A stretch of 64,000 nucleotides of DNA. Source: Thermoplasmata archaeon. GTDB lineage: Archaea; Thermoplasmatota; Thermoplasmata; Methanomassiliicoccales; Methanomethylophilaceae. The position numbers and the translations under genes are program-made. Where the stretch lies: assembly GCA_015063125.1 (NCBI GenBank), contig SUTB01000004.1, positions 62,001 to 126,000 of the forward strand, given 5' to 3'. The notes beneath the pieces were generated by a model. That model saw only the letters and a program-made list of their open reading frames with translations, was not told the DNA's origin and made no database searches. Shown one piece after another: positions 1 through 14,155 of the stretch; the stretch's first letter is position 1, and each line of letters begins with the position of its first letter.

Positions 1-3000
1 AATGATAGCAATTCGCCCATGTCCGGGGGTTCCTGATAGCTGATAGGTAACCTAACAGCCTCTAGGAGGCTGTCAGAATAGCTGAAGGCCGAACTGAGAT
101 AATTGAACGTTATGGGCGGAAGATCGTTTCTTAGATATCCGTATCCCCTGCCTCCCTTCGGTACGGAGCGTCTGGCCTTCCTCACAGAGAAGACATCGCG
201 TACAGGATCGCCGGTCGTGGACAGCACCAGCGGATACATGCAAGTGAACCATCCCACGGTGCGCTCGACATCGTGGTCCCTTCCGTGACCCTCCATCCTC
301 AGCACCAGATCTGTTCCCGTGATATCCTTGAAGGATTCAGCGAATGCGGTCAGCAATATGTCCTGTTTCCCGATGCCGTAGCGGTTCTCGGCAGAAAGGG
401 GCAAGCTGATGGAGAACGGCTCGGACTCCAGCTCGGGAACATTGGCATCTATCTTTACCTTATCCCAGTAGCGCCTCTCGGATTCTGTCGGTTGGTATCC
501 CCTGGCGATCCAATCCCTTATGGGCATGGTCCTGGGCGGCAGGGACGGTTCCCTTCCGTCAATGGCTGCAGAGATGCATTCGGACAGGTCCGACAGTATG
601 ATGTTCCATGACACCCCGTCCACGGCTATATGGTTGATCATGAGGCGGATGTATCTCCTGCCCTCGTACGATATGAGAAGACATGCCATCAGCCTGCCCT
701 CTGAAAGTGACAACGTGCTTAACGCGAATGCTGAGGATGACAGGATGTCGTCCTCCGAGAATGCTTCCACCAGCGTTACATCGCAGACCCTGATACCCTG
801 GTCCCTTATCCTCGGCCTTCCGTCGTAGATGGCACGGAGCATATCATGTCTGTCCGTGACGGCATCTATGGCATGCTGGAGGATGCCCTCGTCCAAAGAC
901 TGCGGACAGAGCAGATCCATGTGCTGTACGAATGTGTCCCTCTGATCAGCTGTGCCCGATTTCAGGAATATGCTGTGAATGGGTATCTCCCCGATATTTC
1001 CTACAGAGGAGCCCATATCGGCGGCCGACGATACTGTGGAGGAGATAGCGCGCACGGTGCGCAGGGACACCACGTCCTTCGCCTTGATCTCTATGCCCTG
1101 CGACCTGCATGATGATACCGCTCTGATCGCTTTCAGGGAGTCCCCGCCCAAACGCATGAAGTCATCGTCGATACCTATGCCTTCAATACCAAGAGCTGAA
1201 GAGAATGCATCGCACAGGACTTTCTCGATATCGTTCCTAGGCGCTGTGTACTCCTTCCTGAGGCTCGATATATCCGGCTTCGGTAGGGCGCGCATATCGA
1301 CCTTACCGTTAACGTTAAGCGGGATCTTCTCAAGGATTATCACGAAGGAAGGGACCATATAGTCGGGCTTGCGCTCGGCCACGTACGACCTCACGGATTC
1401 CCCAGAGATATGCTGGCCTGATGCTGAATGCAGTACGACGTATGCACAGAGCTCCTTGGAACCGTCGTTCTGGACGATAGACTGGACGGTGACATCGCCG
1501 ATGCCTTCCATGGATCTTATGCATGCTTCGACTTCGGTAGGCTCCACACGGTTTCCGCGTATCTTCACCTGTCCATCCCTTCTTCCTATGATGCCGAGGG
1601 TGCCGTCCGGGAGCAGTCTGAAGAAGTCGCCTGTGGCATACATCCTCTCATAACCCTCCTCATCGCAGAACGGGTTGTCAAGGAACACCTCTGAGTTCTT
1701 CTCCGGATTATTGAGGTATCCTGAGGAAAGCTGGTATCCTGAGACGTACAGTTCGCCCACGGCACCGACAGGTACCCTGCGGCGTTCGCTGTCCAGGATG
1801 TACACTTTGGAATTCATATTCGGTATTCCTACGGAACTGCTGTAATTACGTTCCGAGACCGATATCGATGACGTGCAGGCGGTGTTCTCTGTCGGGCCGT
1901 ATCCGTCGATGACGTTGACATCGGTGAACACATCGAACTTCCCCAACGCCTCCCCGCCTAATATCACATTCCTGAGCTTTACCTCTGGATGCTTCTCGAT
2001 GAGCAGTTTTCCGAGCTGTGTCGACAGGAACATACCCGTTATACCCGCACCCTCTATGTGGGAATACAGAGAATCGATGTCAAGACGGGACTCCTCGGGG
2101 ACGATGTCCACAGCAGAGCCTGTGAGGAACGGGGCGAAGAGGGCATTGAGATGGGCATCGAAACCGAAACTGGAATGCATACCCAATACGTCCTCTGACG
2201 ACTGGGAGAAGCGATACGCGGTCCATTCCGATATGTTCTCGACTGCACGATGCGATATGAGGGTTCCCTTGGGTCTGCCCGTGGTACCCGATGTGTAAAG
2301 AATCAGTGCGACATCGGTGGGCTGAACCGTCATAGGCTTGAACTCTGATGGCTGAATACCATCGCATCCTATAATCAGCCTGCCTGTCAGGGATTCACAG
2401 CGACCTTTGATCTCAGAAGTGCACAGGACCACTTTCGCGGATGAATCATCTATCATGAACGATATGCGCTCGTCCGGATAGGATGTATCGATTGGGATGT
2501 ATGACGCACCGGCTTTCATAGCGCCCAATGCACAAAGGAGGTACCATTGCGACCTAGGGACCACGATGGCCACCCTATCTCCTATGCCCACACCCTGTCC
2601 TGCCAGTGAGGACGCGATGGAATCCGTGATCCTATCGACCTCCGCATAGGTGTATCTGCGGCCCATGTACGATAGCAGAGCTCTGTCCGGGAATTCAGAT
2701 ACTGAGTGCCTGAATGCGTCCAGTACAGTGTTGAAATTGAGCGGTACTGCGGTACGGTTGATAGAATCCAGAATATCTAGATCCTCTGCCGAGGTGTAAC
2801 CAATCTCGGAAAGATACGAGCATGACATCAATCCCGAAAGGATATGATCGAATACATGCGCCATCCTCTGGACCGTACCCTCCGAATATCTGGAGGAATG
2901 AACGTACGCCAGAATGTACGATCCGTCTGACTGAATAAGGTTGAATGTAAGGTCGCCGATAATGTCGCTCTCTTTCATTTCAGAAGACACAGCATCGCCG

Positions 3001-6000
3001 TACTGTTCGACTCCGGTAAGATGGTTGAACACCACGCCGAACCCTATGCCGAGATTCTTGGCTATGCTATGGAATGTGCAGAGCTGGTTCGATATCGTGC
3101 CGAAGATCCTCTCCGATGCCTCCGAGACGAACTCACCCACAGTACGGTCCCTGCAGTCCAATGCAAGCGGGAGGGTGCGAACGAACATTCCTGCGGAACC
3201 CTCAGAACCTGTGAGGTCCCTTCCGTTGACGGTGTGGGTGAAAACCGCATCGCGAGTTCCTGAGAACCTGGATAGAGTGTATCCGAACGCTGCACAAAGG
3301 AGATTGGCCGGAGTGGTACCGAGGGATCTGGCCGACGAAACTATCCTGTCAAGAGATTCGGAGAGTATTATGTGCCCCGCACCGAAATGTCCGTCCGGAC
3401 CTTCCGTAAGAATGAAGTCCGTATCAGATAGCATATCGCTGAAGAACTCCTCCGATTGTTCGGATGATGCGTAAAGGGAGGCGTCCTTCAGGAATCCGAC
3501 ATCCTGATCGGGAATGATTCCATTCAATATGGATTCGAGCGACTTGCCTATGATGCTCGATGTGAGGCCGTCAAATATCGTATGGTGGAATGCCGCCTGC
3601 ACATACTTTCCCGAAACGATATGGAACCTGCTGAGAGATTCGGACAGTTCGAATGGCCTGCGGACATCATCCACCGGAGAATCGGAGACTGTGATCTGCG
3701 GTTCTGAATCGATAGAGAACCACGGCTCCCCTTTATCGACCGTTATCCTGGACCTCAGGACCGGGTGGACATCCAAAAGAGTCGATATCGCCTCCAGTGC
3801 CTGATTGTCGGTTGTACCTTCGGGCATGGGATATGTCGCATCGATGATGTAAACTGAATCGGACCTGCCGCTCTCGATGTCCAGATATACATCGAGGGAA
3901 CCGCCTGTCAGCGGACATCCTGTTTCCAACGAGTAGATGTTTTCAGTATATGCTGAGACTGATGATGCAGCGATAGTTCTGGGGGTACGCTTGGTCAGTA
4001 TATCTGAAACAAGGATTTTCATTCCAGACGACCTGCACACTGAAACCGCTTTAACCGCTTTCAAAGAATCTCCGCCCAGGCGGATGAAGTCGTCGTCTAT
4101 GCCTATGCGATCGATGCCCAGGGCCACAGAGAATGCTTCGCACAGCGCCTTCTCTGTATCATTCCCAGGTGCTGTGAACTCTGCTTTAAGTTCGGATACG
4201 TCCGGCTTAGGCAACGCACTCTTGTCAACCTTTCCGTTAACATTCAAAGGTATGCGATCCAGGACAACGACGAACGAAGGCACCATGTAATCGGGCTTAC
4301 GCTCCGATACGAACGACCTCACCTGTTCTGTAGGAACAGAAGGCGCTGATGGAGAGATTGCTATGTAAGCACAAAGCTCCTTGGAACCATCATTCTGGAT
4401 GATGGGTTGGACAGTGACATCATCGATTCCTTCCATGGATCTTATGCATGACTCGACCTCCGTCAGTTCGACACGGTTTCCGCGGACCTTCACCTGTCCG
4501 TCCCTTCTGCCCATTATTCCGAGAGTACCGTCGGGGAGCAGTCTGAAGAAATCCCCTGTGGCGTACATCCTCTCATATCCTTTCTCTTTACAGAAGGGGT
4601 TGCTGAAGAATGCCTCAGCATTCCTCTCCGGAGCATTCAGATATCCGGATGACAGCTGATATCCCGAGAGAAACAGCTGGCCGACCGCTCCTACGGGCAC
4701 CCTGCGGTGCTCTGCATCGAGTATGTATCCCTTGATGTTGGACTGGAACCTTCCTACAGACGAGGGGTCTTTCTTATCATTGACCGGTATCTGTGTGACC
4801 AATGCAAGCGATTCGGTTGGACCGTACCCATCCACGACCTGGTACGGGGTACTGGCATCGAACTCGCCAAGCTTCTCCCCAGCGACGAACAGTACCCTGA
4901 GATCGGATTCGAGACCTAGCTCCGCCAGCATCCTGCCCAGATGCGTGGTCATGAAGGTATGGGTCGTGTGAGCTTTCACAAAATGATCGTTCAGCACATG
5001 CATGTCCAGCCTTATGTCCTCAGGCACTATGTCCAAGGATGCTCCACAGACTAAAACGGGGTACAACGCTAGGGCATGCATATCAAAGGTATAGGCGGTG
5101 TAGAAAGAATAGACGTCGTCGGGCACCATGTCCGTGCATGATACATACCACTCCGAGAGATTGATCAGGGCCCTGCGGCCGATCACCGCACCTTTGGGCT
5201 GACCGGTGGTTCCCGATGTGTACAGCACGATGGCCGCATCTTCTGGAGAAACCGTTACGGGTTCGAACTCCGCATCAGCGCATTCGGAGCAGCATATTAC
5301 TGTCACCGATGAAAGCCTGGAAGCACGATCCATGGTCTCAGCAACGCATAGGATTGATTTCGCAGATGAATCGTCGATCATGAACGATGCGCGCTCGTCC
5401 GGGTAGGATGTGTCGATGGGTACGTATGCCGCACCCGTCTTCAAAGCACCTATGGAGCAAAGCAGATACCATTCCGACCTTGGGACCAGGACCGCAACGT
5501 TATCCCCCTTGTTCACACCGGATGCCCTCAGGGCGGCTGCTATGGAATCCGTTACCCTGTCAACCTCTGAATACGTGTAACTGCGGTCAAGATAGCTAAG
5601 GAGCCTCCTCTCAGGATACTCCGACACCGAATGGCTGAAGGCCTCAAGTATATCGTTGAATCTCAGCGAACGAGCCGTATCGTTCAAGGAATCCAGTTTG
5701 TCCAGGTCCTCTGATGTGACGTACCTAATTTCGGACAGACGCGAGCATGACATGAATCCTGAAAGGACAAGATCGAACGCGCGCACCATACTCTGGACCG
5801 TACTCTCCGAATACTTGGAGGAATGAACGTACGCCAGAATGTACGATTCGTCTGATTGGATGAGGTTGAATGTCAGATCCCCGATGACGTCCCTCTCTTT
5901 CATTCCGGAAAGGACGGCATCGCCGTGTTGCTCAACACCTGTGAGATGGTTGAATACGATTCCGAATCTTATGTTCAGATCATTAACTATACGGTGGAAA

Positions 6001-9000
6001 GGGCATAATTGGTTCGCTACCGTGCCGAAGATCCTCTCCGACGCCTCCGTTACGAATTCCTTGACAGTACGGTCTTTGCAGTCCAACGCCAGTGGGAGGG
6101 TGCGGACCAGCATACCTGCAGAATTCTCAGAACCTGTGAGGTCCCTTCCGTTGACGATATGTGTGAACACCGCGTCGGACGTTCCGGCGAACTTTGATAG
6201 AGTGTATCCGAACGCTGCGCAGAGGAGATTGGCCGGAGTGGTACCGAAGGATCTGGCAGACTCGATTATCCGCTCCAGAGGTTGCGATAGGGTGACATGT
6301 CCGAAACCTATCTCGCCTTCCAGGTCCTCTGTCAGAGTGAATTCCGTGTCGGAAAGCATCTCGATGAAAAACTCCTCTGATTGTTCGGATGATGCATAAA
6401 GGGAGGCGTCCTTCAGGAATCCAACATCACGATCGGGAATGATTCCATTCAATATGGATTCTAGGGACTTGCCGACTATATCCGAGGTAAGACCGTCGGA
6501 TATCGTATGGTGGAATGCAGCCTGAACATACTTTCCCGAAACGATATGGAACCTGCTGAGAGATTCGGACAGCTCGAATGGTCTGCGGATGTCTTCCACA
6601 GGTAAATCGGAGACTGTAATCAGTGGTTTTGCATCGACGGCGAACCAGGGCTCGCCATTCTGAATGACGATTCTGGATCTCAGAACAGGGTGGACACCGA
6701 TAAGCGCGGATATCGCATCCAGAACCTGCTTATCAGAGATACCTTCTGGTACAGGGTATGTCGTATTGATGACGTATACCGAATCCGATTTGCCGCTTTC
6801 CACATCCAGATATATGTCGAGTGAACCGCCTGTCAACGGGCATCCAGTTTCCAATGTGTAGATGCATTCTGTATGAATGTGTGATATGGATGATGCAATG
6901 CTTTTAGGGGTACGCCTGCCCAGGATGTCCGAAACTTTGATCTCGAGTCCGAACGACCTGCATGCGGAGACCGCTTTGACAGCTTTCAAAGAATCTCCGC
7001 CCAGACGGATGAAATCATCCTCTATGCCTATGCGGTCGATGCCCAGGGCCACAGAGAATGAATCGCACAGGGCCTTCTCAGTATTATTCCTCGGTGCGAC
7101 GAATTCCCTTATGAGTTGGGATTCGTTGGGCTCTGGCAGCGCATGTCTGTCCACCTTTCCGTTAACATTCAAAGGTATGCTGTCCAGGACGACGACGAAC
7201 GAGGGCGCCATGTAGTCGGGTTTGCGCTCGGATACGAACGCCCTGATCTGTTCAGCGGTTATCTCGGAAGAGGGAGAGGTCACGATGTATGCGCAGAGCT
7301 CCTTGGAGCCATCGTCCTGAACGATGGGCTGGACGGTAACATCGTCAATGCCCTCCATCGTTCTGATGCAGGACTCGACTTCTGTGAGCTCCACACGGTT
7401 GCCTCTGATCTTTACCTGTCCGTCCCTTCTGCCTATTATTCCGAGAGTACCGTCGGGGAGCAGTCTGAAGAAGTCCCCTGTGGCGTACATCCTCTCGTAT
7501 CCCTTCTCCTTACAGAACGGATTGTCGAAGAACGCTTCAGCTTCTCTCTGGGGATTGTTAAGATATCCTGATGACAGCTGGTATCCGGACAAATACAGCT
7601 CAGCTACGGCCCCGATCGGGACCCTGCGGTGTTCCGCGTCCAGCAGATAGACTGCGGTGTTCTGAATCGGAATACCCACCGATTCGGTGTATGTCCTCGC
7701 GTCCAGAACCTGATAGGTGACCGAGACGGTGGCCTCTGTGGGACCGTACTTCTCCATGACAGGGTAGTCTGGGAGGACTGCCATGTCCATGAACTTCTCG
7801 CCTCCGACCACCAGATATCTCAGTCCGCATTCGGGATGCTTCTCTGCGAACATTCTGCCGATGACTGTAGGCAGGTGGAGGTTGTCTATGCGATGGTCGG
7901 TAACATAATCGTACAGAAGATCGAGGTCCAGCCTCACATCCTCGGGTATGATCTCGACCGATGCACCTGAAATTATGGGGGAGAACATGCTCTCCAGATG
8001 TACGTCGAAACCGAAACTGTGGTAAAGCGCCACCTTGTGGTCCGGAGATATGCATGTTGCCCGGCTGTAGAATTCTGAATAGTTCTCGACCGCAAGATGC
8101 GTGATGAGAGAACCCTTCGGCGTTCCTGTGGTTCCGGATGTGTATAGTATGACGGCAGTATCAGTCGGCGAGATCGACTTGTGCCCGAAACGGGACGTCT
8201 TGACCTCGTCGCAGCTGACGATAGGAATCTCTGAAAGCGATTTGCAGCGTTCTCTGGTCTCGGCAGTGCATATGACCGCTTTAGAGAACGAATCACTGAG
8301 CATGAATGATACACGCTCGTCCGGATAGGATGTGTCGATCGGGACATATGCCGCACCCGTCTTCAACACACCGAGGGCGCCGAGGAGATACCATTCCGAC
8401 CTAGGGACCATGACGGCCACACTGTCTCCGCTGGTCACACCCTGACCTACGAGTGCGGATGCTATGGAGTCCGAGATCCTATCGACCTCGGAGTAGGTGT
8501 AGTTGTGATCTAGATAGGTCAGCAGAGTTCTGTCGGCATGTTCCGATACGGACTGTCTGAATGCTTTTGTGATGTCGTTGAACTTCAGCGGAACAGCGGT
8601 ATCACTGATGGAATCCAAGATATCGAGCTCTTCCTCCGAGGTATATCCTATATCGGACAGTCTTTCGCATCTTATCAATCCTGCAACGATTCTGTCGAAG
8701 GTCTCGGCCATCCTCTGGACAGTGTCATCCGTGTACTTTTGCGAGTGCGTACAGGACAGATTATAAGTGTCCCCGGATACGAACACGTCGAATGATATGT
8801 CGGCGACGATCTCCCTGTCCTCGAGACGCACCGTCTCCAGACCGGACAGATGGTTGAAAACCACGCTGAAATCCATACCGAACTCACTGGCGATGGCATG
8901 GAACGGACAGCGCTGGTTCGATATCACCGATATGATCGTATCATTCGTCTCCCTCAGGAATTCGGCCACGGACCGATCGTGGCAGTCCACGACCAAGGGC

Positions 9001-11402
9001 AAAGTGCGGGCGAACATACCTACAGAGGAAAGCGAGCCTGTGATGTCCCTTCCGTTTACTATGGTACCGAAGAGAGCTTTCGATGAACCGGTGAATCTGG
9101 ACAGGGTGTATCCGAAAGCCGATGTCAAAAGGTTGGCAGGGGTCGTTCCCAATGAACGGGCACGTTCCGCCACCTGTTTTACACTTGATGTGAGACTCCT
9201 GCCCACGTGTCCGCTGGCGCCGTTGGGATCGGGTACCGGTTCAGGGATATCATAGATGTCGTCCAGTAATCCTCTGAAGAATTCCAATGATCCCTTGATG
9301 TCGAAATCCGCATATGAGGATGCATCCCTCAGGAATCCGATGTCCGCTTCCACGGAAAGACCTGAGAACAACTTCTCCAATGCTTCATTCAGGACCATTA
9401 TGCTGAAACCATCGGAGATCGTGTGGTGGAACGCTGCCTGTATGCAATCGCCCGACACTATGTTGAATCTCGCAAGACTATCAGAGAGGATAAAGGGCCT
9501 TCTGATATCATGCACCCTTTCTTTCGATACGGTAACCTCCGGCACGGAACCGAAAACGAACCTCGGTTCTCCGCTCTTATCCGAGATGCTGGCCGTAAGA
9601 ATGGGATACACCTCCAGAAGCTTCCCGATCACCGCTCTTGCATCTTCGTCTCTCACACCCTTGGGGATAGGATGCTCAAGGCTGACTATGTATGGTGCGT
9701 CCGACCTGCCGCTCACTATGTCGAGGTAGACATCCAATGCTCCGCCTGTGAGAGGGCATCCGGTTTCGAGCGTGTACAGCAGCGTTTCCGCCAATCCTCC
9801 GGAAGATGCGGCCAAGGCCCGGGGGGTGCGCCTGGAAAGGATGTCCGCGATACTCACTGACAGACCGTGATCCCTGCATATGTACGACAGCTTAATCGCC
9901 CTGAGGGAGTCTCCACCCAGACGGATGAAGTCATCATCAACGCCGAGGCCTTCTATTCCGAAGACCTCGGAGAATGCCTCACACAGCGTCCTCTCCGCAT
10001 CATTGCTTGGAGCAACATACTCTGTCAACAGTGTCGATTGGTCGGGCTCAGGCAGTGCATGCATGTCCACCTTGCCGTTGGAGTTCCTCGGAAGGGAATC
10101 CATTCTGACGAAGCGCCTGGGAACGAGATAGGAATCGATCTTGCTCATCAGCTCGCCACGGAGCTTCTCTGGTTCTATCTTTCCAGTATAGAAACCGCAC
10201 AGATATGGGCTCCCGTCGGGTCTGTGGAAGACGGCAACTGCCGCATCGTCAACACCATCTATGGTGGACATAGCATATCTGGTCTCGGCCGGTTCGACCC
10301 TATGGCCGTTAATCTTCACCTGTTCCCCGATCCTGCCCAGGATGTGTATCCCATCCTCCATCCTCTTACCGATATCTCCGGTGTGCAGGACGCGTATGGG
10401 CGTCTCCGGATATCCTTCGGACATATCGTCGAGATATCCCAACAAGAGGCCTCTGCCACGGCAAACGATTTCACCCACATCAGCAGGGTTGCCATCCTCG
10501 TCCTCCACAGTTATAGAACTACCAGCTGGCGGTTCTCCGAGGGGAGGGTCCAGATCATAGTTTGTTACCTCGCCGATGCAGATTAATCCTTCAGACAATC
10601 CATAGGAGTTGAATAGCCTGACACCGTCAACACGGGATTGAACACCTGCCTTGTCTCCTCCGAAAACCACATTCCTGATCGATGAGGGTCTTCCCAGAGC
10701 ATCGTAGTATCTAGGTATGAGGATCATGTAATCCAGACGTACCTTGTCCAGAAAGGCACGCATGCGAGGGATGTCGCCTCTTAAGGCATCGTCGATGATG
10801 TAAAGAGAAGCACCGCCGTTGAACGTAGGGTAGAGATCTACATTTGAGACGATGAACGATACGCTGCTGATCGTTCCGACTTTGTCCGTCGTTTTTAACG
10901 GGATGGTCCCGATCTGTGTCTCGACCAGATTCGAGATGCATTCCCTGGATTGAAGCACCCCTTTGGGCGTTCCGGTGGAACCGGATGTGAAGACGATAAA
11001 TGCAGGTTCATTATCGGATATAACCTCTGGTTCGAAATCTGATTGCAGACCTTCAGGCAGCGAAAAATCCCTTCTGATCACGAGCTTAGCACCGCTTGAT
11101 GCTATCATCATCTCGGCACGCTGCTCCGGAACTGAGGGATCCAAACTGAAGTAGATCGCCCCGATATTCATGCATGCATATCTAAACGCGAAATGCAGCG
11201 CGCTACGCCCGGTATTGATAACGACAACATCTTTCCTTAGTATGCCGCCATCTTTGAGATAATTGGTGCATCTGCCAATCATAGCGAGGAATTCTGAATT
11301 GGAATAGGATTTGTCCCCATCCGTTTCATACACGCAGAGTTCGGTGGGGTCCTCTCTCATCTTACGGTACGTCGTTGAGAGGATTTCCTGCGCTGTCAGC
11401 AT
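1..11402 (-). CDS. Multimodular non-ribosomal peptide synthetase, A-T-C-A-T-C-A-T-C-A-T-E (3' end beyond window)
   Basis: This cytosolic enzyme assembles a peptide on carrier-bound phosphopantetheine arms. The frame appears open for 3,800 codons and runs off the left edge. Carrier (T) domains carry GGDSL with serines at about residues 499, 1471, 2446 and 3422. Three condensation (C) domains carry HHTISDG or HHTIFDG at about 659, 1631 and 2606. Adenylation (A) domains carry TSGTTG/TSGSTG, YGPTE (YGLSE in the first) and a final NGKVD lysine. The last domain is an epimerase: NHIAVDGVSW near 3590, EGHGRD at 3704, RTVGWFTCMYP, then FNYL. Hand-aligned pocket codes (GrsA numbering, uncertain) are A1 IVVIVGSICK, A2 DVEHVGKVSK, A3 DMLFFAGALK and A4 DANFIGGACK. 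There is no leading C domain, so A1-T1 is the loading module. A TATA-like stretch about 28 bases upstream suggests a leaderless ATG. No MbtH, phosphopantetheinyl transferase or release domain is visible. Confidence 0.96.
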   Translation of the reverse strand, partial: MLTAQEILSTTYRKMREDPTELCVYETDGDKSYSNSEFLAMIGRCTNYLKDGGILRKDVVVINTGRSALHFAFRYACMNIGAIYFSLDPSVPEQRAEMMIASSGAKLVIRRDFSLPEGLQSDFEPEVISDNEPAFIVFTSGSTGTPKGVLQSRECISNLVETQIGTIPLKTTDKVGTISSVSFIVSNVDLYPTFNGGASLYIIDDALRGDIPRMRAFLDKVRLDYMILIPRYYDALGRPSSIRNVVFGGDKAGVQSRVDGVRLFNSYGLSEGLICIGEVTNYDLDPPLGEPPAGSSITVEDEDGNPADVGEIVCRGRGLLLGYLDDMSEGYPETPIRVLHTGDIGKRMEDGIHILGRIGEQVKINGHRVEPAETRYAMSTIDGVDDAAVAVFHRPDGSPYLCGFYTGKIEPEKLRGELMSKIDSYLVPRRFVRMDSLPRNSNGKVDMHALPEPDQSTLLTEYVAPSNDAERTLCEAFSEVFGIEGLGVDDDFIRLGGDSLRAIKLSYICRDHGLSVSIADILSRRTPRALAASSGGLAETLLYTLETGCPLTGGALDVYLDIVSGRSDAPYIVSLEHPIPKGVRDEDARAVIGKLLEVYPILTASISDKSGEPRFVFGSVPEVTVSKERVHDIRRPFILSDSLARFNIVSGDCIQAAFHHTISDGFSIMVLNEALEKLFSGLSVEADIGFLRDASSYADFDIKGSLEFFRGLLDDIYDIPEPVPDPNGASGHVGRSLTSSVKQVAERARSLGTTPANLLTSAFGYTLSRFTGSSKALFGTIVNGRDITGSLSSVGMFARTLPLVVDCHDRSVAEFLRETNDTIISVISNQRCPFHAIASEFGMDFSVVFNHLSGLETVRLEDREIVADISFDVFVSGDTYNLSCTHSQKYTDDTVQRMAETFDRIVAGLIRCERLSDIGYTSEEELDILDSISDTAVPLKFNDITKAFRQSVSEHADRTLLTYLDHNYTYSEVDRISDSIASALVGQGVTSGDSVAVMVPRSEWYLLGALGVLKTGAAYVPIDTSYPDERVSFMLSDSFSKAVICTAETRERCKSLSEIPIVSCDEVKTSRFGHKSISPTDTAVILYTSGTTGTPKGSLITHLAVENYSEFYSRATCISPDHKVALYHSFGFDVHLESMFSPIISGASVEIIPEDVRLDLDLLYDYVTDHRIDNLHLPTVIGRMFAEKHPECGLRYLVVGGEKFMDMAVLPDYPVMEKYGPTEATVSVTYQVLDARTYTESVGIPIQNTAVYLLDAEHRRVPIGAVAELYLSGYQLSSGYLNNPQREAEAFFDNPFCKEKGYERMYATGDFFRLLPDGTLGIIGRRDGQVKIRGNRVELTEVESCIRTMEGIDDVTVQPIVQDDGSKELCAYIVTSPSSEITAEQIRAFVSERKPDYMAPSFVVVLDSIPLNVNGKVDRHALPEPNESQLIREFVAPRNNTEKALCDSFSVALGIDRIGIEDDFIRLGGDSLKAVKAVSACRSFGLEIKVSDILGRRTPKSIASSISHIHTECIYTLETGCPLTGGSLDIYLDVESGKSDSVYVINTTYPVPEGISDKQVLDAISALIGVHPVLRSRIVIQNGEPWFAVDAKPLITVSDLPVEDIRRPFELSESLSRFHIVSGKYVQAAFHHTISDGLTSDIVGKSLESILNGIIPDRDVGFLKDASLYASSEQSEEFFIEMLSDTEFTLTEDLEGEIGFGHVTLSQPLERIIESARSFGTTPANLLCAAFGYTLSKFAGTSDAVFTHIVNGRDLTGSENSAGMLVRTLPLALDCKDRTVKEFVTEASERIFGTVANQLCPFHRIVNDLNIRFGIVFNHLTGVEQHGDAVLSGMKERDVIGDLTFNLIQSDESYILAYVHSSKYSESTVQSMVRAFDLVLSGFMSCSRLSEIRYVTSEDLDKLDSLNDTARSLRFNDILEAFSHSVSEYPERRLLSYLDRSYTYSEVDRVTDSIAAALRASGVNKGDNVAVLVPRSEWYLLCSIGALKTGAAYVPIDTSYPDERASFMIDDSSAKSILCVAETMDRASRLSSVTVICCSECADAEFEPVTVSPEDAAIVLYTSGTTGQPKGAVIGRRALINLSEWYVSCTDMVPDDVYSFYTAYTFDMHALALYPVLVCGASLDIVPEDIRLDMHVLNDHFVKAHTTHTFMTTHLGRMLAELGLESDLRVLFVAGEKLGEFDASTPYQVVDGYGPTESLALVTQIPVNDKKDPSSVGRFQSNIKGYILDAEHRRVPVGAVGQLFLSGYQLSSGYLNAPERNAEAFFSNPFCKEKGYERMYATGDFFRLLPDGTLGIMGRRDGQVKVRGNRVELTEVESCIRSMEGIDDVTVQPIIQNDGSKELCAYIAISPSAPSVPTEQVRSFVSERKPDYMVPSFVVVLDRIPLNVNGKVDKSALPKPDVSELKAEFTAPGNDTEKALCEAFSVALGIDRIGIDDDFIRLGGDSLKAVKAVSVCRSSGMKILVSDILTKRTPRTIAASSVSAYTENIYSLETGCPLTGGSLDVYLDIESGRSDSVYIIDATYPMPEGTTDNQALEAISTLLDVHPVLRSRITVDKGEPWFSIDSEPQITVSDSPVDDVRRPFELSESLSRFHIVSGKYVQAAFHHTIFDGLTSSIIGKSLESILNGIIPDQDVGFLKDASLYASSEQSEEFFSDMLSDTDFILTEGPDGHFGAGHIILSESLDRIVSSARSLGTTPANLLCAAFGYTLSRFSGTRDAVFTHTVNGRDLTGSEGSAGMFVRTLPLALDCRDRTVGEFVSEASERIFGTISNQLCTFHSIAKNLGIGFGVVFNHLTGVEQYGDAVSSEMKESDIIGDLTFNLIQSDGSYILAYVHSSRYSEGTVQRMAHVFDHILSGLMSCSYLSEIGYTSAEDLDILDSINRTAVPLNFNTVLDAFRHSVSEFPDRALLSYMGRRYTYAEVDRITDSIASSLAGQGVGIGDRVAIVVPRSQWYLLCALGAMKAGASYIPIDTSYPDERISFMIDDSSAKVVLCTSEIKGRCESLTGRLIIGCDGIQPSEFKPMTVQPTDVALILYTSGTTGRPKGTLISHRAVENISEWTAYRFSQSSEDVLGMHSSFGFDAHLNALFAPFLTGSAVDIVPEESRLDIDSLYSHIEGAGITGMFLSTQLGKLLIEKHPEVKLRNVILGGEALGKFDVFTDVNVIDGYGPTENTACTSSISVSERNYSSSVGIPNMNSKVYILDSERRRVPVGAVGELYVSGYQLSSGYLNNPEKNSEVFLDNPFCDEEGYERMYATGDFFRLLPDGTLGIIGRRDGQVKIRGNRVEPTEVEACIRSMEGIGDVTVQSIVQNDGSKELCAYVVLHSASGQHISGESVRSYVAERKPDYMVPSFVIILEKIPLNVNGKVDMRALPKPDISSLRKEYTAPRNDIEKVLCDAFSSALGIEGIGIDDDFMRLGGDSLKAIRAVSSCRSQGIEIKAKDVVSLRTVRAISSTVSSAADMGSSVGNIGEIPIHSIFLKSGTADQRDTFVQHMDLLCPQSLDEGILQHAIDAVTDRHDMLRAIYDGRPRIRDQGIRVCDVTLVEAFSEDDILSSSAFALSTLSLSEGRLMACLLISYEGRRYIRLMINHIAVDGVSWNIILSDLSECISAAIDGREPSLPPRTMPIRDWIARGYQPTESERRYWDKVKIDANVPELESEPFSISLPLSAENRYGIGKQDILLTAFAESFKDITGTDLVLRMEGHGRDHDVERTVGWFTCMYPLVLSTTGDPVRDVFSVRKARRSVPKGGRGYGYLRNDLPPITFNYLSSAFSYSDSLLEAVRLPISYQEPPDMGELLS
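2780..3960 (-). repeat. NRPS condensation-domain repeat, copy 2 (module 4)
   Basis: Second copy of the duplicated condensation-domain block. It keeps the HHTIFDG active-site motif, with Phe where copy 1 has Ser. The distances from T2 to T3 and T3 to T4 are 2,925 and 2,928 bases, so whole modules appear to have been copied. Such repeats are a risk point for short-read assembly. Confidence 0.75.
5705..6885 (-). repeat. NRPS condensation-domain repeat, copy 1 (module 3)
   Basis: This stretch encodes the third-module condensation domain. It is nearly the same at DNA and protein level as the block about 2.92 kb away in module 4. Long shared runs can be read directly, for example around 6391-6470 against 3471-3550. 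The neighbouring A-domain ends are also alike (7415-7500, 4490-4580, 1570-1650). I infer recent tandem module duplication or gene conversion. Boundaries are approximate. Confidence 0.75.
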
Positions 11403-11419
11403 ATCTACGCCCAATGCAG

Positions 11420-11866: not shown

Positions 11867-12514
11867 TCAATCGGAATTCGATTGAGCCCTTCTGATCATC
11901 CCATAGTGCTTGATGTCGGTTCCTGGGAGCTTCCCCACTTCCGCCAGTTCGAAACCGAAATGCTCATAGAAGGGAACGTTGGATGCATCATGGGTTTCCA
12001 GATAGGCGGAGCAACCTATGTCGTCAAGGTAACCGAGGAAGGGGTCAAGCATCTTCCTGGCCAGGCCCTTACCCTGATAGGCGGGCTCTACGGCCAGATT
12101 GGATACGTACCATGTGTCCCTGTCTATGTACCTGTTCATCATGTCTACGCAGTAGTCCTCATAGGATGACAGCTTTGTCAGGACACTGAATCCGTACCTC
12201 ATGCCCAGCCTGAGGCCTCCTTTCATGATGAAATCGAATGTCCCTATCTTCGATCCCGGAGGACAGAGGGACAATATGCCGTGCCCGTCGACAGATATGT
12301 TGATCCCGTCCCTGCAGGCGATCATCTGCAACGCGCATATCTCTGAGATGCAATGATCATCATAGCCTTTCGGCAATGTGTAGTCGAAGCACGGATATCC
12401 TCTATAGCTCTCACCGCAGAACCTGGTTTTTGTGCGCTCATCGCCCTTGCGGATTATGGATAACCCTTCTGTCCTGGAGATGATCTCGATCAGATCAGAA
12501 TGAGCGGCCTTCAT
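11867..12514 (-). CDS. GNAT family N-acetyltransferase
   Basis: A 215-residue protein whose C-terminal half has the GNAT fold, which transfers an acetyl group from acetyl-CoA to an amine. Visible signs are the beta4 strand WYVSNLAVEPAY, the acetyl-CoA pyrophosphate loop QGKGLARKM near residue 150, and the late motif NVPFYEHFGFEL near residue 185. The N-terminal half (CGESYRGYPCFDYTLPKGYDD) is not part of the usual motif set and may set the substrate, which cannot be predicted. It is a single gene reading towards the NRPS. A tailoring or self-resistance role for the NRPS product is conceivable but has no support beyond proximity. Confidence 0.88.
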   Translation of the reverse strand: MKAAHSDLIEIISRTEGLSIIRKGDERTKTRFCGESYRGYPCFDYTLPKGYDDHCISEICALQMIACRDGINISVDGHGILSLCPPGSKIGTFDFIMKGGLRLGMRYGFSVLTKLSSYEDYCVDMMNRYIDRDTWYVSNLAVEPAYQGKGLARKMLDPFLGYLDDIGCSAYLETHDASNVPFYEHFGFELAEVGKLPGTDIKHYGMIRRAQSNSD

Positions 12515-12589: not shown

Positions 12590-12672
12590 ATTGAATTTTA
12601 TCCCTATTTTTCCCTCATAAAAGTTGTGAAATTGTCCTATTTTTTCCTCATAAAAATTGAATTTATATATGT
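12590..12672 (+). promoter_or_regulatory. Direct repeats and TATA box before the AAA ATPase gene
   Basis: Two near-identical copies of CCTATTTTTCCCTCATAAAA lie at about 12602-12621 and 12634-12654, each next to a TTGAATTT element. The second runs into a TATA box (TTATATAT, 12663-12670). The box is 25 bases before a GTG that starts the ATPase, so the message is probably leaderless. The direct repeats look like operator half-sites for a repressor. Confidence 0.55.
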
Positions 12673-12691
12673 CCAGATCATTCATTCATTC

Positions 12692-14155
12692 GTGAGACGC
12701 AAAATTACTGAGAAAATGGCTTCATGGAAGGACGATTCCCAAAGGAAGGCTATCTTGATCCGCGGCTGCCGCCAGATTGGGAAAACGTACATCATACGTG
12801 ATTTCATATCATCCAATTACGAATGTTACATGGAGTTCAACCTGGAAGAGCGCAAAGACATCGCCCAGCTCTTCAGGGATAAGAATCTTACAGCCCCTGC
12901 GATAATCGACCGTTTGATATTCGACTCCCCCGATATCAAAAAGATCGTACCGGGCAATTCAGCAATCTTTCTGGACGAGATCCAATCGTGTACTGAAGCA
13001 TATGCGTCCCTGAAGGCTCTCGCCGACGATGGCAGATTCGACATATTCGCCTCCGGATCGCTTCTGGGGGTCATGTTGAACGATCTTCAGGATCAATCCC
13101 CGCTGGGGTATGTGAACATGATAGACATGTATCCCATGGATTTTGAGGAATTCCTGTGGGCAATGGGGATCGATCCCGAATATACGGAATACATCAGGAA
13201 ATGCATCCTCAGATGCGAGAGGATCGACGAATTCATACTGACGAGAATATCGGATCTGTTCAGAAGATATCTCGTGGTCGGAGGGATGCCTGCAGCCGTC
13301 ATCGATTACGCCTCCAAACAGGATTACTCCAGCGTGCGCTCGATCCTCGGTGATATAGCTGAGCTCATAGGACAGGATGCGCAGAGATATTCCAAAGGTG
13401 CGCAGAGGATGCACATAGATGCATGTCTGAAATCCATTCCGGAACAGCTTGCAAAACCCAATAAGAAATTCCAATACACCCGCATAGAGAAGAGGAAAGG
13501 CGTGGGAAAGAGGATCTACGGCCCTGCGCTGATGTGGCTCAAGAATGCCGGTCTGATCCACATATGCAACAATGTCACGGAACCGGTGTCCCCTCTAAGA
13601 GAAAGAACCGTCGCTGATGTATTCAAGATCTATTTGGCCGATACGGGCATACTGATGGCGCTGACAGAGGAAAACATCGAAGGGACGATCGTCAACAGGG
13701 ATCCTCTGGCCAACAACGGGATGGTCATGGAGAACGCCGTTGCCTGCGCCCTTAGATCCAAAGGATACACCCTGAGATACTATGAGAAAACCAACAGCAC
13801 CTTGGAGATAGAATTCGTGGTTAACCTTCAGGGAAGCATTACGGCCATGGAGGTGAAATCCGGTAGGAAAAAGAAGTCCAAGTCACTGAAAATGGTCTTC
13901 ACAACGACTCATACCGTGGACAGGGCGATCAAGCTTTCCGAGGGCAACGTATTCAAGGATGAGAACGGTGTGGAGCACTACCCGTTGTTCGGGGTCTGCT
14001 TCTTCCCTGATGCTTCGTACAGCGATCTCGGCCCCATCGATTATATGGACGACCTGAAGGGAAGGCTCAGAATGATCGGTGGAAAGGATGCGCCCGATGA
14101 GAGCAGAATCGCCTTAAAAAGATTGGGAATGAGAAACAGCGCAAAAGATGCTTAG
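12692..14155 (+). CDS. AAA ATPase with C-terminal DUF4143 domain
   Basis: This 487-residue protein belongs to the widespread prokaryotic family joining an AAA_14-type ATPase to a DUF4143 region with nuclease-like features; its cellular role is unknown. Walker A is RGCRQIGKT near residue 25 and Walker B is AIFLDEIQ near residue 92. The C-terminus has LEIEFVVN and AMEVKSG, reminiscent of the D-ExK core of restriction-type nucleases. I chose the GTG at 12692 because a TATA box lies 25 bases upstream; a longer reading from 12626 would cover its own promoter, and ATG 12716 is an alternative. The stop is TAG, the only amber stop among the genes here. Readthrough would add an amber-encoded residue plus 11 codons, to a TGA at 14189-14191. 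It is probably an accessory gene. Confidence 0.85.
   Translation: MRRKITEKMASWKDDSQRKAILIRGCRQIGKTYIIRDFISSNYECYMEFNLEERKDIAQLFRDKNLTAPAIIDRLIFDSPDIKKIVPGNSAIFLDEIQSCTEAYASLKALADDGRFDIFASGSLLGVMLNDLQDQSPLGYVNMIDMYPMDFEEFLWAMGIDPEYTEYIRKCILRCERIDEFILTRISDLFRRYLVVGGMPAAVIDYASKQDYSSVRSILGDIAELIGQDAQRYSKGAQRMHIDACLKSIPEQLAKPNKKFQYTRIEKRKGVGKRIYGPALMWLKNAGLIHICNNVTEPVSPLRERTVADVFKIYLADTGILMALTEENIEGTIVNRDPLANNGMVMENAVACALRSKGYTLRYYEKTNSTLEIEFVVNLQGSITAMEVKSGRKKKSKSLKMVFTTTHTVDRAIKLSEGNVFKDENGVEHYPLFGVCFFPDASYSDLGPIDYMDDLKGRLRMIGGKDAPDESRIALKRLGMRNSAKDA

Follow-up and report, generated by a model that had tools for sequence, protein, structure and literature searches.

A five-module non-ribosomal peptide synthetase of a Methanomethylophilaceae archaeon and its predicted condensation-type release domain

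Described archaeal synthetases and the N1 gene

Non-ribosomal peptide synthetases (NRPSs) of archaea were first reported in Methanobrevibacter ruminantium, where mru_0068 and mru_0351 were described with a terminal thioesterase, mru_0068 being shown with a thioester reductase in Fig. S8 of the same paper (Leahy et al. 2010, PMC2812497). A rumen survey later yielded 687 archaeal NRPS clusters; among 85 near-complete genomes, Methanobrevibacter was stated to be the only carrier (PMC8241843). From the isolate ISO4-G1 (CP013703) the gene AUP07_0971 was described as encoding a 'pyrrolysine-containing' protein of 5,216 aa and unknown function, and pyrrolysine was predicted at its two TAG codons (Kelly et al. 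2016, PMC4824259). The gene investigated here, N1, is of the same type. An initial annotation had called NRPS genes rare in archaea and known mainly from a few methanogens such as Methanobrevibacter; hundreds of clusters are indeed on record in the latter, but a near-identical N1-type enzyme has been known from ISO4-G1 since 2016, and it is the full plan, the kinship and the companion genes that are worked out here.

The window, a stretch of 64,000 nucleotides, spans C3:62001-126000 in a genome that is 99% complete and totals 1.65 Mb over 8 contigs. The host belongs to the Methanomethylophilaceae (Methanomassiliicoccales) and to the same genus as ISO4-G1. On the minus strand, one frame (window 3..11414) is open for 3,804 codons and is interrupted just by the left edge of the window, in agreement with the at least 3,800 codons claimed initially. 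When the frame was followed to the left in the whole genome, the end of the gene was found at a TGA at C3:57764, 4.2 kb outside the window, while the conventional release domain expected there was absent. From stop to stop the frame comprises 5,225 codons; the first ATG, at window position 11402, gives a protein of 5,212 aa that is complete in the assembly. Neither frameshifts nor stops occurred across the 5,212 codons in two genomes, and with the frame complete in the whole genome, truncation or frameshift of N1 was ruled out. The features of the locus are as follows.

1..11402, minus strand: N1 NRPS gene, covering the 5,225-codon frame from residue 14 to about residue 3,814; the remainder lies left of the window
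10062..11402, minus strand: A1, starter adenylation domain; pocket IVVIVGSIC, Asp235 missing
9822..10019, minus strand: T1, carrier domain; LGGDSL
8682..9764, minus strand: C2, condensation domain; HHTISDG
7152..8594, minus strand: A2; pocket DVEHVGKVS
6906..7103, minus strand: T2
5772..6854, minus strand: C3; HHTISDG
4227..5669, minus strand: A3; pocket DMLFFAGAL
3981..4178, minus strand: T3
2832..3929, minus strand: C4; HHTIFDG
1302..2744, minus strand: A4; pocket DANFIGGAC
1053..1250, minus strand: T4
1..1004, minus strand: E4, epimerisation domain; NHIAVDGVSW, GRGYGYL and FNYLS; final residues left of the window
C3:57764-62000, minus strand, left of the window: C5-A5-T5-Cterm, with the last residues of E4
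11867..12514, minus strand: GNAT acetyltransferase gene, immediately upstream of N1 and on the same strand

Pfam and NCBIfam profiles together with motif reading gave the order A1-T1-C2-A2-T2-C3-A3-T3-C4-A4-T4-E4-C5-A5-T5-Cterm. Pfam cut-offs were exceeded by three domains each of type A and T plus two of type C in the first half of the protein, and in its second half by two each of A and T plus three C/E domains; the motifs A3, A8, LGGDS and HHxxxD were found in nearly all domains; N1 thus shows the repeated A, T, C order and conserved motifs by which modular NRPSs are recognized. The arrangement A-T-C-A-T-C-A-T-C-A-T-E with nearly all motifs intact, as read initially, held as far as E4, but is followed by C5-A5-T5-Cterm, bringing the number of modules to five. 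The condensation domains are distant from every solved one, and C5 carries HHxxMDA instead of HHTxxDG. E4 was assigned by its HHxxxDGxSW, GYG and FNYL motifs and by its grouping with other archaeal E domains in a single clade; its active site reads NHxxxDGVSW, the first histidine being replaced by Asn and the second retained. Among solved proteins, those nearest to it are E domains or E-containing constructs from the PvdL, tyrocidine, bacitracin and gramicidin synthetases, and for the A and E domains of N1 the nearest solved structures included LgrA and TycA. Both are bacterial; LgrA carries a formylation domain, and tyrocidine is freed by a thioesterase.

The genes flanking N1 are archaeal (thermosome and proBA). 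The GNAT acetyltransferase gene is probably not part of the N1 system, because it is missing beside N1 in ISO4-G1. The proA-proB pair, about 1 kb downstream, was considered as a source of tailoring enzymes and rejected, as these genes serve proline synthesis and are likewise not beside N1 in ISO4-G1. In the same-species genome G077 a gene for a multi-pass membrane protein, by eye resembling an acyltransferase-3 protein, lies between N1 and proA (L139:2470-3777); it is absent from the window's genome, the difference being a recent insertion or deletion. Also, a fragment that by eye resembles the beginning of an ATPase gene of AAA_14/DUF4143 type was observed downstream of N1 (L139:1469-1792; C3:56748-57122), and complete genes of this type lie near both NRPS loci of the genome (window 12626-14155 and C2:150562-151872).

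Orthology with ISO4-G1, companion genes and kinship

N1 and AUP07_0971 share 86% identity over 5,225 aligned positions and are co-linear orthologues over their full length, with the same domain order and the same start ATG (MLTAQEIL). All 45 pocket residues, nine in each of the five A domains, are identical. Synonymous divergence (dS) between the two was 0.60 and dN/dS was 0.12, alike in every 500-codon block; compared with the same-species genome, N1 showed 101 differences in 15,678 bases and a dN/dS of 0.14. In the ISO4-G1 copy (L036:3633-19433), two in-frame TAG codons break the gene into three frames and no other defect was found; selection was seen to continue unbroken past both. These codons are absent from N1, which has AAG (Lys1081) and CAG (Gln3448) at the two sites, and the orthology is independent of them. 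PylS, which is expected in Methanomassiliicoccales, is present in the host genome. Since N1 has Lys and Gln at the TAG sites, pyrrolysine is, judged from these sequences, not required by the N1 enzyme family.

The gene neighbourhood of the orthologue in ISO4-G1 is unrelated to that of N1. Between the two genomes, dS of N1 (0.60) was lower than that of PylS (1.24), the gene next to it (0.89) and the phosphopantetheinyl transferase (3.1), which fits transfer or later arrival of N1, with a yardstick of just three genes.

The host genome encodes one 4'-phosphopantetheinyl transferase (C2:149815-150561, also listed at C2:149893-150186), adjoining an EamA transporter gene and a second synthetase gene, N2. 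In ISO4-G1 the transferase gene adjoins the N1 orthologue, in divergent orientation. Throughout the order, 16 of 17 genomes with an NRPS had the transferase, compared with 14 of the remaining 130 (Fisher p = 2e-12); for the genus alone the corresponding figures were 12/13 and 4/18 (p = 2e-4). No MbtH protein was detected in the five genomes tested. N2 has the order C-A-T-C-A-T-R in a frame of 2,454 codons (C2:140795-148159; L011, L013) and is unrelated to N1; relatives occur in many genomes of the genus, and its C domains fall with those of Lachnospiraceae and other Bacillota in a tree of 58 domains. Like the AusA-type synthetases and the dipeptide-aldehyde synthetases of gut Clostridia it is short, ends in a reductase and has an adjacent transferase gene, but unlike them it starts with a C domain. 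A gene next to N2 (L011:3494-5296) joins a SpoIIE-type phosphatase to an anti-sigma-type kinase domain; regulators similar to this type accompany the M. ruminantium NRPS clusters (PMC2812497).

To place N1 among archaeal synthetases, loci were gathered with one alignment query, an earlier single-sequence scan of the genome contigs having given no match. The C-domain cut-off was passed by 19 of 147 genomes of the order, mostly of this genus, within which about six genomes, some of them fragmented, had the N1 type; relatives include Candidatus Methanomethylophilaceae archaea RGIG8197 and RGIG6046. In the tree of 58 C-superfamily domains, in which the E domains and the terminal domain stand on long branches and the loci derive from the one query, all elongation C domains of N1 formed one clade with the 15 Methanobrevibacter domains included (SH-aLRT 100), with no bacterial member among those sampled. 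The Methanobrevibacter synthetases also have E domains and terminal C-type domains, but they belong to a different phylum and their C domains are only about 26-31% identical to those of N1. In several of them (L067, L076, L077, L079 and L083) the last domain was seen to be of condensation type, in most cases carrying a long insertion, and these five loci showed no thioesterase motif; mru_0068 and mru_0351, with their described terminal thioesterase, differ from N1 in this respect.

Two doubts about the gene itself could be weighed against these data. That bacterial DNA had been fused to an archaeal contig by contamination is next to inconceivable: the rarity of NRPSs in archaea speaks for it and nothing else, whereas the nearest kin of N1 are all archaeal and, in a same-species genome consisting of a single contig, N1 sits at the same locus with matching flanks. 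Contamination was rejected on the latter ground, and the initial view of N1 as a chromosomal gene with archaeal flanks was upheld. The idea that N1 is decaying or silent and owes its presence to chance or recent transfer draws on its patchy presence in the genus, the different neighbourhood and the two TAG codons in ISO4-G1 and a dS below that of all three genes compared. It is nevertheless highly improbable given the low dN/dS (0.12-0.14), the reading frame free of frameshifts and stops in two genomes and the conservation of pockets and transferase.

Chain release and predicted product

No thioesterase or reductase domain was found in N1 with Pfam; such an ending is common in modular NRPSs, though not strictly defining. 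A thioesterase of family PF00975 was likewise not found in the five genomes tested, including that of the host. The protein instead ends in a condensation-like domain, Cterm, with the motif CHLAFDG, in which Cys replaces the first histidine while the second histidine and DG remain. Cterm is weakly similar to the C domain of LgrA, and a profile of the terminal domain, built from five Methanobrevibacter loci and one from the Methanomethylophilaceae, matched solved C and E domains with E values of 3e-14 and weaker. The predicted structure of the terminal-domain homologue of RGIG6046 had a mean pLDDT of 51, a poor model whose fold matches serve just to name the superfamily; the matches listed were solely of the NRPS C superfamily and included 6CGO, the release domain of enacyloxin. 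By profile and by this low-confidence model, Cterm is a member of the C superfamily. Rhabdopeptide synthetases and fungal CT domains release their chains by terminal condensation domains. Like these and the enacyloxin system, N1 has a terminal C domain and no thioesterase; the likeness is one of position and, for enacyloxin, of the fold match.

N1 is probably a functional, self-contained NRPS that would make a five-unit peptide released by Cterm. In this model, a genome-encoded Sfp-type phosphopantetheinyl transferase would arm the five carrier domains. A1 would load a starter, probably other than a free alpha-amino acid. In A domains an aspartate holds the amino group of the amino acid substrate; A1 has Ile at this position in both N1 and ISO4-G1, and with the aspartate missing, a carboxylic, keto or hydroxy acid is the probable starter. 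A2 to A5 would contribute four further units joined by C2-C5. None of the pocket codes gave a confident match to a known specificity; A2 may take a basic residue, and the pockets of A3 and A5 look hydrophobic, both being weak predictions. Epimerisation of unit 4 to the D form, as claimed initially, is predicted from the position of E4 after T4, and C5 would accept the D-unit. The peptide of at least four units foreseen at that time grew to a predicted five once C5-A5-T5 had been read beyond the window. Cterm might free the chain with an amine, a hydroxyl or water as the attacking group, or might cyclise it. Substrates, release chemistry and production of the N1 protein are what we infer from the gene, and the role of Cterm in release is deduced from the absence of thioesterase and reductase domains.

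The ending of N1 could be read in two other ways. Cterm might be a dead remnant, with the peptide hydrolysing or cyclising spontaneously or being cut loose by an unrelated hydrolase. The Cys in place of the first motif histidine and the weak similarity to solved C domains would suit this, but Cterm is 91% identical between N1 and ISO4-G1 and thereby among the most conserved parts of the enzyme, the second histidine and DG are retained in a homologue of 26% identity, and several Methanobrevibacter synthetases likewise end in a C-type domain, so that a dead domain appears rather unlikely. Less likely still, N1 and N2 might form one line in which Cterm hands the chain to N2 and a heptapeptide aldehyde is released. 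Both genes occur in the same genome, N2 opens with a C domain and closes with a reductase, and N1 lacks the usual release domain. Against a common line, however, the C domains of the two differ in ancestry, the genes sit on separate contigs and are separated by some 170-190 kb in the single-contig genome, and N1 is missing from most genomes with N2. ISO4-G1, moreover, has N1 alone; as it has no other NRPS, N1 must act by itself there, and the hand-off was rejected as the main model. Release by Cterm from a self-contained N1 is the preferred reading.

To our knowledge, no peptide of this archaeal lineage has been described, and a literature search found no study of the product of an enzyme of the ISO4-G1/N1 type. 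Because N1 is intact and under selection and the cultured relative ISO4-G1 has the same predicted product, this product can be sought directly. A wider reading, quite speculative and doubtful as a whole, would be that an NRPS lineage with condensation-type release ends is peculiar to gut methanogens and common to two of their phyla, its members moving between species as single genes, and that the full-length enzyme of ISO4-G1 needs its two pyrrolysines. If this were true, pyrrolysine supply could govern peptide output in ISO4-G1, while the window's species would have lost or never had such control; the comparison with N1 indicates that the pyrrolysines reported in 2016 are dispensable for the enzyme family. 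The role of the N1 product is probably an ecological one in the gut, and a peptide of gut methanogens could influence competition or partnership in the rumen, the site of methane formation.
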